64,000 bases of DNA from an uncultured Acidobacteriota bacterium (GTDB lineage: Bacteria; Acidobacteriota; Blastocatellia; Pyrinomonadales; Pyrinomonadaceae): assembly GCA_937873515.1 (NCBI GenBank), contig CALMYB010000012.1, forward strand, positions 1 through 64,000, written 5' to 3'. The notes under the pieces are model-generated. The model did no database searches. It saw only the letters and a list, made by a program, of their open reading frames with translations, and had not been told where the DNA came from. Each line of letters begins with the position of its first letter. Within the stretch, counting starts at the first letter, position 1. Shown here piece by piece: positions 1,849-5,545 of the stretch. Position numbers and translations under genes: made by a program.

Positions 1849-1879
1849 TTGACATTTTTTTGGGGGGGGGGCGTAGAGT
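1849..1879 (+). promoter_or_regulatory. Candidate promoter with T7-G10 spacer
   Basis: A perfect -35 TTGACA (1849-1854) is followed by seven T (1855-1861), ten G (1862-1871), CG, and a -10-like TAGAGT (1874-1879). The spacer is 19 bp; losing two G would give the optimal 17 bp. Homopolymer tracts placed this way are known to give slipped-strand phase variation of promoters in other bacteria. Here this is inference. The tract could also be an assembly artefact. The controlled gene would be the secreted protein at 1932. Confidence 0.45.
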
Positions 1880-2694: not shown

Positions 2695-4104
2695 CTAAAC
2701 GTCTGACGACGGATCGTAGCTTGACGATGTGTCGATCGGCATCGACGTATCAATTCCGGTATCGACGGCGTCGTAACCACCCGCGTCATACGTACCGGCG
2801 TCATACGCACCCGCATCAAGATCGGGAGCGTCGTAGCTGCCGCCCGTTTCTACTGCGGACGACGGGTCGGCATCGTAGGAATAGCTGTCCTCATCAGCAC
2901 GCGATGCATAGTCATCCGCCGAAGCGGCATAAGCGTCAGCATGATCAGCGGCAGACTGGGCGGCATCGTCCATTCCTGCATTCGCGTACCATTCCGCATC
3001 GGCAGCGGATGACTCGGCATTCTTTTGGTCATAGACAGCGTTGTCGAGATTATAAACGTCGTTGTCCGATTGGCCGGTGTGATCGTCGCCGCCCGCAAGG
3101 TAATCGGCATCGCCGGTCGCGTAGCCCGCATTTTGAGCATCCTCTTTCGCCGCCTCGTAATCCCCTTCGGCGATATGTTCCTGCTGTTGTGCCTGATAGT
3201 CCTCGGCTTGTTCCTGCTTGTAGGCGGCGTTATCAAGATCGGCAGAGTCCGACGATCCGAGCATCGACGAATCACCCGCCGCATAAGCTTCGTTCTCCGC
3301 AGTTTCTCTCGCGTCGGCAGCTGCCGCATAATCACCTTGTGCGACAAAATCGTCAGCAGCCGATTGAGCGTCGGTCGCAGCATCTGCGTGAGCTTGCTGT
3401 TCGGCAGCGGCGGCGTCAGCGTCGGAGGTTGTCGCGGTATCGGAAGGTTCGACCGGTGATGCCGCGTAGCCCGCATCGACCGGCGTTTCGACGAACGCAG
3501 GATCAGCACCGACGCCATAGTCGGCCGCCGGCTGCTCGGCGTAGTCTGCGAACGCATCCGCCTCGTCCGTCGGAGCATCTTCGACGGGGAACCCGTCTTC
3601 GCCCACCGTGAACTCGACCGAATTCGTCGAGATCTCTTCTGCGGTCGGGAGGCCGTCAGCATCGAGAGTGTAGTCAGTAACGCCGTCGCCGTCTATATCT
3701 GCCTCGTCCATTTGGCCGTCACCGTCGGTGTCGGTCATCGTGGCATCGACCACGCCGTCGCCGTCCGTGTCGAACGCCATAGCATCCAGGTTACCGTCAC
3801 CATCGGCATCGACTCCGGCGGCATCTACCTTTCCATCACCGTCCGTGTCCGCAACAACGGTGTCGGTAACGCCGTCGCCGTCCGTGTCTGCGGCCGCAGT
3901 GTCGAGTCTCCCGTCGCCGTCATAGTCCATATAGGCGGCATCGTGATCGGTAGAACCGTCATCGAACATCGCCTCTACGGCGCCTTCTGCAAAGCCCTGA
4001 TCGTCCGCCGCGAGATCCTCGACCTTTCCGGTCGTGATCTCAAATTCCTGCTCCGAGCCGTCAGCTCCGGTTTCGGTGATCGTAATATTATCGCTAGTCG
4101 CCAT
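2695..4104 (-). CDS. Highly acidic protein with thrombospondin-3-like DxDGDG repeats
   Basis: A 469-residue protein dominated by Asp, Glu, Ala and Tyr. Residues about 58-150 hold seven or so 13-residue units of the type DTDGDGVTD, DADGDGNLD, DIDGDGVTD, each a Ca2+-binding DxDxDG loop as in thrombospondin type 3 and dockerin-like repeats. An Ala-rich helical part (about 215-400) contains two related copies starting LDNAAYKQEQ and LDNAVYDQKN. The C-terminal 60 residues are Tyr/Asp/Ser repeats. There is no signal peptide or membrane segment, which is odd because such repeats are usually exported. The start is supported by ggagaatttgaact before ATG. It overlaps the upstream gene by 11 bp, so the two are likely translationally coupled. 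Function unknown. Confidence 0.75.
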   Translation of the reverse strand: MATSDNITITETGADGSEQEFEITTGKVEDLAADDQGFAEGAVEAMFDDGSTDHDAAYMDYDGDGRLDTAAADTDGDGVTDTVVADTDGDGKVDAAGVDADGDGNLDAMAFDTDGDGVVDATMTDTDGDGQMDEADIDGDGVTDYTLDADGLPTAEEISTNSVEFTVGEDGFPVEDAPTDEADAFADYAEQPAADYGVGADPAFVETPVDAGYAASPVEPSDTATTSDADAAAAEQQAHADAATDAQSAADDFVAQGDYAAAADARETAENEAYAAGDSSMLGSSDSADLDNAAYKQEQAEDYQAQQQEHIAEGDYEAAKEDAQNAGYATGDADYLAGGDDHTGQSDNDVYNLDNAVYDQKNAESSAADAEWYANAGMDDAAQSAADHADAYAASADDYASRADEDSYSYDADPSSAVETGGSYDAPDLDAGAYDAGTYDAGGYDAVDTGIDTSMPIDTSSSYDPSSDV

Positions 4105-5545
4105 AGTTCAAATTCTCCTGTTTTGTTGGAACCTTTGGCCCGGCATTCCCACCGGACTTTGCATTTTTTGTTAGACGCGTTATGGCTTTGCATTTTGCGT
4201 CAGGACACTTGACCGGAAGCTCGGTCTTGCCCGCTAAGGCCTTCTTCGGGATACGCATTGCCGTCCCGCATGCTGAACACTTGAAGCGCAGAACGTCCGG
4301 TTCTGGCTTTTGCTGAGCCGGCTGCTTTGGTGCGCCGGCCTTTATCGTTTGAGAGATGATGGAGAGCGAATGCTTAAATTCCTGGCTTGCGGCGAATTGC
4401 GTCAATAGTTTCAGACGCGGGCCGATATACGGTGTTGACGTTGTCGTAAGCTCGGAGAGCTTTCCGTAAGAATCATCGTCAACCGACTGCTGTTCGAGCC
4501 AGGTGTTGATATTGATCTGCTTGAAAATGAAGGAAGACTTGAGCGTCCACGACAAAAGGACGCGTCGAGCGACCTCTTCATTGCCAACGGCGAGCAGGCC
4601 CGCACGGTCGGCGGTGATCTCTGCTTGACGTGCCCACGCCAGCAGCGGCATTTCCATCGCACCGCCGATCAGAGCGGAAGGACTGAGAATGTTCGCCAAG
4701 ATGCCGCCCGCCATAAAGCCTTTGGCAGGGCCTTGTTCGCCGAGAAAGAATCGAATCACCGTCTTCCAAAGAGCGTGCCCGGCCTTACAGTGTCCCATCT
4801 CGCGTGCGAGCAGAAAGAGCATATCAACGCCTTGGAAGTTTCCCGCGAGGGCCGATCCTATGACGATAAAAGAATCGTGGTCGGTACCGAACGTGAGCAT
4901 ATCCCAGGCTCGTTCGCCGGAAATATAGACATTCGGCATTTTCGGCATTCCGAGGATACGGGCCGCCCGCACGGCTTGCCCGAACACGTGGGGAAGCTGT
5001 TTCTCGCCAAGCTGCACACCATTGAACGTAGATTCGATCCACCGTCGGCCAACCTTGTCCGAAACAGCTTTTGCGGCGAGGCTCATCGGTTTGATCGATC
5101 GAAGCACCGCCATCGCTTTTGCGTCGGCGGCCCAAGCGAACGCTGAATTATCGACCTGATAGCCAGGGACTATCGGCTTTAGCGCCCGACATTCCGTGCA
5201 GATCACGACCTTATCGGGCAGATTTGCTCCGTTTCCTCCGCAAGTGTAGCAACTGATCTGCTGAACCGGAGGCGGATACGCGGGAGCGTATTGCGGCTGC
5301 TGCGGATAGTATTGCTGTGGTTGCTGCTGCTGAGGCGGCGGGTAATTTTGATATATTCCGGCGGCCTGCTGTGCGGGCGGAAATTGTCCCGGATTAGGCT
5401 GCGGGCTTGGCGGCGGAGCCTGGGGCGGAGGTGCTCCTGCAGCGGCTTGCGGAAATGCCGCCAGAGCAACGCCGCAATAAATACAAAACCTAGAGCCAGC
5501 CTGTGGCTGGTCGTGTCCGTTGCTGCATTTGATACCGGTGGCCAT
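4094..5545 (-). CDS. Zinc-ribbon M48-like protein with degenerate protease motif
   Basis: A 483-residue protein. In order: an N-terminal zinc ribbon (CSNGH ... CIYCG, residues 7-25), a Pro/Gln-rich linker (35-95), a second zinc motif (CYTCGG ... CTEC, 99-119), an M48-type metallopeptidase-like core (about 170-380), and a C-terminal zinc ribbon (CSACG ... CPDAKC). In the core, the expected HExxH reads REMGH (residues 248-252), while the third-ligand region EITAD (309-313) is kept. The first His ligand is therefore Arg, encoded by CGC, one transition from CAC. By family knowledge this should abolish normal zinc binding, so it is probably a pseudoprotease or binding scaffold. It has no signal peptide. 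It is co-directional with the genes at 5552 and 2695. Confidence 0.75.
   Translation of the reverse strand: MATGIKCSNGHDQPQAGSRFCIYCGVALAAFPQAAAGAPPPQAPPPSPQPNPGQFPPAQQAAGIYQNYPPPQQQQPQQYYPQQPQYAPAYPPPVQQISCYTCGGNGANLPDKVVICTECRALKPIVPGYQVDNSAFAWAADAKAMAVLRSIKPMSLAAKAVSDKVGRRWIESTFNGVQLGEKQLPHVFGQAVRAARILGMPKMPNVYISGERAWDMLTFGTDHDSFIVIGSALAGNFQGVDMLFLLAREMGHCKAGHALWKTVIRFFLGEQGPAKGFMAGGILANILSPSALIGGAMEMPLLAWARQAEITADRAGLLAVGNEEVARRVLLSWTLKSSFIFKQININTWLEQQSVDDDSYGKLSELTTTSTPYIGPRLKLLTQFAASQEFKHSLSIISQTIKAGAPKQPAQQKPEPDVLRFKCSACGTAMRIPKKALAGKTELPVKCPDAKCKAITRLTKNAKSGGNAGPKVPTKQENLNYGD

Follow-up and report, generated by a model that had tools for sequence, protein, structure and literature searches.

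A probable slippage-tuned promoter with a poly-G spacer, and a putative phase-variable set of exported-looking proteins, in an environmental genus of Acidobacteriota

Contingency promoters tuned by a run of guanines are best known from animal-dwelling bacteria. In the excerpts of the literature drawn on here, the closest described cases are porA and fetA of Neisseria meningitidis, where the length of a poly-G between the -35 and -10 elements sets the spacing in front of an outer-surface protein gene (PMC7864442, PMC2791445), and tp0126 of Treponema pallidum, which also has a poly-G between -35 and -10 and is transcribed best at a spacing of 17 bp (PMC7864442). At opc of N. meningitidis a poly-C run at the promoter alters transcription (PMC7864442), the run being located over the -35 region in the relevant passage of that paper, and between the two elements in that of PMC2791445. 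At the level of coding sequences, homopolymeric tracts in the starts of genes have been surveyed (PMC2831843). The window, by which we mean the whole stretch of 64 kb that was analysed, carries a promoter-like site that resembles porA, fetA and tp0126, as these excerpts describe them, in having a poly-G between its -35 and its -10. In the open-licence literature, with results for Acidobacteria judged by title, phase variation in members of Acidobacteriota was the subject of no paper that we found.

The promoter at 1849-1879 and the gene behind it

On the + strand a perfect TTGACA (1849-1854, 6/6) is followed by T7 (1855-1861), the first part of the spacer, by G10 (1862-1871), the presumed slippage site, by the bases CG, and by the -10-like hexamer TAGAGT (1874-1879), which agrees with TATAAT at 4/6 positions; the spacer is 19 bp, and all of this, as given in the first-pass annotation, was exact on re-reading. 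The site bears the mark of promoters of the porA and tp0126 type, a homopolymer of at least about 8 bases that separates an identifiable -35 from an identifiable -10, and its G10 is the sole run of G or C longer than 5 in the window. The pattern TTGACW-N(2-12)-G6-N(0-4)-TANNNT has this one match in the window, and none in 100 dinucleotide-preserving shuffles. The site was not among the matches of an ordinary-promoter scan of the window, because a spacer of 19 falls outside the range of 16-18 that the scan accepts.

The promoter starts 6 bases past the stop codon of dcd, a dCTP deaminase-like gene (1250-1843, + strand; Pfam DCD, 3.9e-26), and 88 bases after dcd, on the same strand, lies a gene for a protein of 228 aa (1932-2618), with its ATG at 1932 and a Shine-Dalgarno-like AGGAGG, read from the sequence, at 1921-1926. 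The protein looks exported, with a start that by eye resembles a signal peptide, then an N-terminal segment rich in Cys, in keeping with the Cys-rich protein named in the first-pass annotation, and then alpha/beta C-terminal domains in the structural model (pLDDT 79). It had no match in a Pfam search, and a Foldseek search of the model against solved structures gave nothing at E 0.001 or better. Its C-terminal part had weak structural matches only, to 4m0n (Z 2.7, 63 residues) and to DotD 3ady (Z 2.5, 74 residues), both of which we take to be STN or secretin N0-like domains; the model thus suggests alpha/beta domains loosely like those of secretins and TonB-N, a likeness too weak for function. 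A terminator-like hairpin (2643-2676, - strand, from the window scan) stands between this gene and a convergent one. At 2695-4104 on the - strand, the window also encodes an acidic protein of 469 aa that repeats a DxDGDGxxD motif, looks calcium-binding by eye and has no Pfam match, and the start of its gene overlaps the end of a gene for an M48-type peptidase (4094-5545).

Recurrence of the tract in the genome, the genus and the class

The genome to which the window belongs (G000; 3.56 Mb, 27 contigs) contains just 8 runs of G8 or longer, both strands together, against about 1.2 expected from a third-order chain fitted to the window. Five of these 8 lie directly 3' of a TTGACA and lead into a -10-like hexamer, and with the founding locus taken out the proportion is 4 of 7 (binomial P 3.6e-9, with the TTGACW frequency of the window as background); the promoter, proposed at first as a single switch, is instead one of a set that shares its build. 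The other four read TTGACA-8 bases-G8-TACACT (spacer 16), TTGACA-8-G11-TACAGT (spacer 19), TTGACA-9-G10-CA-TACTCT (spacer 21) and TTGACA-5-G10-CG-TAGGCT (spacer 17). The genes behind them encode two related exported-looking proteins of 194 and 195 aa (a family with no match in a Pfam search) and then FG-GAP repeat proteins, an exported-looking protein of 954 aa, and a group made up of one thioredoxin-like, one Cys-rich and one VWA protein.

Each of the remaining three of the 8 runs is located close to the 5' end of a gene whose product looks exported, at an actual or possible frame break. At L038 a signal-peptide-like frame enters G14, and a 710-codon frame lies beyond, out of step. At L040 a signal-peptide-like frame is followed by C10 and by a 983-codon frame out of step with it, and the signal-peptide-like frame is not joined; a joined-frame heuristic run over 53 cases nevertheless scores the locus as joined, because a further frame upstream, which has an ATG of its own, reads through the tract. 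Owing to this other ATG, L040 is graded as a probable coding frame switch only. L043 has G12 at a frame break, with one more break past the tract and a large frame that ends in a reprolysin-like domain, and it may be decayed. Reading of these frames suggests that start-proximal homopolymers may act as frame switches at L038 and, less surely, at L040 and L043. With 44% identity, the protein of L040 and the 954-aa protein, the latter with a tract in its promoter, form one family, which perhaps has two modes of switching, by coding frame and by promoter.

A general claim of coding switches was set aside: many of the G8 runs in genus genomes other than G000 are plain in-frame coding runs, a hand count put 32 of the 53 cases in this class, and many of the 21 shifted ones lie opposite a longer frame. 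In four genomes (G010, G040, G021 and G022), runs of G8-G11 at position 1502 of loci L096, L115, L086 and L099 have similar sequence around them, which by eye may encode a methyltransferase-like protein, and these would be possible further coding switches.

The genus, which we take to be the one named OLB17 in GTDB, has 170 tracts of G8 or longer in 41 genomes. A search for TTGAC, which took in all of them, placed 19 tracts 2-13 bases after this motif, in 9 genomes, against 2 in the reversed control; contexts were read for all of the 170 but 45 (9 in G043, 22 of 23 in G020, 2 of 7 in G023, 3 in G005 and 9 of 13 in G004). The full pattern, with a -35, G6 or more and a -10, occurs at 27 places in 15 of the 41 genomes and is absent from 26, with a single match in the reversed control. 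A class-wide claim was also tried and abandoned: beyond the genus, 121 other genomes of the class gave 36 matches to the -35/G8 pattern, spread over 27 of them, where the reversed control gave 21, with TTGACG or TTGACC in 19 of the 36, and the claim and the enrichment are therefore limited to the genus.

Among the individual loci, three in G010 and G019 (L188, L191 and L207) have near-identical promoters, TTGACACTTARGC-G7-CGTACTAT, at 1501-1528, each followed by a conserved leader of more than 100 bases; these leaders and L010 had no Rfam match at E 0.1, and the three could possibly represent a repeated leader RNA or a mobile unit with a G-run promoter. Runs of G or C of up to 76 at contig ends (L125, at the end of G048:C3, and L177-L179 in G055) are probably assembly artefacts.

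Spacing, change of length and competing explanations

The search for homologs of the window gene gave matches in 7 of 40 genomes, its own counted, to which L213 was added from the named genome collection, and five of its six relatives keep a homopolymer in the promoter spacer. Upstream of the homolog there is T8G8 in G014, T9G6 in G021, a T run and then CG10 in the genome OLB17 (G002), T7-AA-G8 in G007, and C9 between TTGACA and TATAAT in G004; the -35 is TTGACA in all of these except G002, which has TTGACT, and G014 shares the hexamer TAGAGT. The upstream stretch of the more distant L213 is without such a tract, and no such site was present in the stretch inspected upstream of a far match in another genus (G038, 30% identity), which was not counted among the six. 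The OLB17 homolog is broken by frame changes behind its retained G-run promoter (L044/L214), breaks that may reflect either assembly error or decay. Among the thioredoxin-like homologs, those of G000, G049, G007, G016 and G051 are preceded by a G-run promoter, in G014 the tract is interrupted (GGGGGTGGGG), and several others have no G-run promoter in the upstream stretch inspected. In G016 the site upstream of the thioredoxin-like gene reads CTTGAC-G10-CAATGTCAAG (L130/L242, tract at 1502 in L130), where the G run stands between inverted copies of TTGAC, so that either strand could be read as a -35 with a spacer of G or of C. Exported-looking collagen-like proteins of G007 and G049 (36% identity over 436 columns) are preceded by the same build, with a perfect TATAAT in both.

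Over some 1.39 kb, G000 and its closest relative, G014, differ in internal length at a single point, where T7G10 stands against T8G8, while substitutions in this stretch number 66/592 in dcd, 4/87 in the intergenic region and 35/709 in the gene and its end; a tract that differs in length between close relatives while its flanks are conserved is the second mark of the porA and tp0126 type. A second promoter, that of the 954-aa gene, has G10 and a spacer of 21 in G000, and G7 and a spacer of 17 in OLB17. These lengths come from MAG assemblies, which may misstate homopolymers.

As for the spacing at which such promoters would work best, TTGACA-TATAAT pairs without a G run, taken from the nine tract-bearing genomes (35 pairs, 3 with a G run of their own removed), peak at a spacer of 16 (21 of 32), whereas promoters with G8 or longer span 14-21, and one of the 18 has a spacer of 16. 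A Mann-Whitney test separates the two groups in location (P 0.004), and they also differ in the fraction within 15-17, a range picked post hoc (5 of 18 against 25 of 32, Fisher P 8e-4); Levene's test gave no significant difference in spread between these 18 promoters and the 32 controls (P 0.31). In this genus the optimum is likely 16 rather than 17. The first-pass annotation had counted the 19 bp correctly, and had taken as its target the 17 that would follow the loss of two G; since ordinary promoters peak at 16, G7 and not G8 would be the optimal, fully ON length. As assembled, with 19 bp, the window promoter should be weak or OFF, and ON near G7.

We consider it rather likely that this is a porA-like, slippage-tuned promoter, a slipped-strand tract set within a housekeeping-type promoter and one of a genome-wide set. 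Gain or loss of G during replication would change the distance from -35 to -10, and with it how well RNA polymerase starts the gene of the 228-aa exported-looking protein; each assembly would then hold one frozen state of each switch, the window promoter being caught in a weak one. The phase-variable reading offered at first is strengthened, in that the build recurs at other loci of the genome and at homologs of other species, and the length of the tract shifts while its flanks stay constant.

The recurrence of the build upstream of functionally alike genes, and the G7 promoters of G010 and G019, all three of the same length and with conserved leaders, would also suit a fixed architecture, in which a stiff or bent T/G spacer, or a regulator that recognises G-rich DNA, marks an exported-protein regulon and changes of length are incidental. 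However, tract lengths of 6-13 and spacers of 13-21 are seen over the 27 places, homologous promoters vary in length and, with the C9 of G004, even in base, and the same genome has coding-start tracts, one of which belongs to a paralog of a gene with a tract in its promoter, all of which leaves a fixed architecture unlikely. We hold it to be very improbable that the tracts lack a function, as remnants of past mutation or as faults of assembly, even though the assemblies are MAGs, the OLB17 gene is broken and one G014 ortholog has its tract interrupted: runs of G8 or longer are rare in the genome and yet far above chance in promoter spacers, and the distant G007 homolog (37% identity) retains its G run although the upstream region otherwise aligns poorly. 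The promoter could also lie elsewhere, upstream of dcd or with another -10, with the tract affecting mRNA or DNA structure only, as the weak TAGAGT and the short distance from dcd on the same strand might suggest; with a TTGACA that is both perfect and conserved, and the same architecture with a perfect TATAAT in G007 and G049, we give this hardly any credence.

Returning to the slippage-tuned promoter, since its genome has at least five G-run promoters and up to three start-proximal coding tracts, a small set of exported-looking proteins in this organism is probably phase-variable. We lean, with some reserve, towards the wider reading in which these promoter-spacer and coding switches form a genome-wide set in an environmental genus of Acidobacteriota, covering Cys-rich, FG-GAP, collagen-like, protease-like and thioredoxin-like exported-looking proteins, with one family whose copies would be switched differently, one at the promoter and another in the coding frame, and serving as bet-hedging against phages, predators or neighbours rather than against host immunity.

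Comparison with described systems

If this is true, the contingency-promoter device would be in use outside host immunity, in an environmental acidobacterial genus, the genes concerned would amount to a list of surface-type genes on which the cell hedges, and single-assembly MAGs of the genus would show one random state per switch. If the G10 promoter of the window does switch, it would be one of the stop-and-go gene switches that are familiar chiefly from bacteria associated with animals.

The start-proximal homopolymers read as frame switches, as at L038 and less surely at L040 and L043, resemble the tracts of PMC2831843, a survey of coding tracts in whose text 'acidobacteri' occurs 0 times and 'promoter' twice. 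As the excerpted sources present the promoter systems, opc has a counterpart in the G004 homolog, with a C9 in the spacer that here lies clearly between -35 and -10. The tp0126 promoter differs from the present one in belonging to a pathogen, in its OmpW-like product and in the measured effect of length on its transcription. With respect to porA, the differences are another phylum, environmental MAGs, an unrelated Cys-rich exported-looking product and a switching that is predicted, together with a likely optimum spacer of 16 here against 17 in porA, and a T run that precedes the G run.
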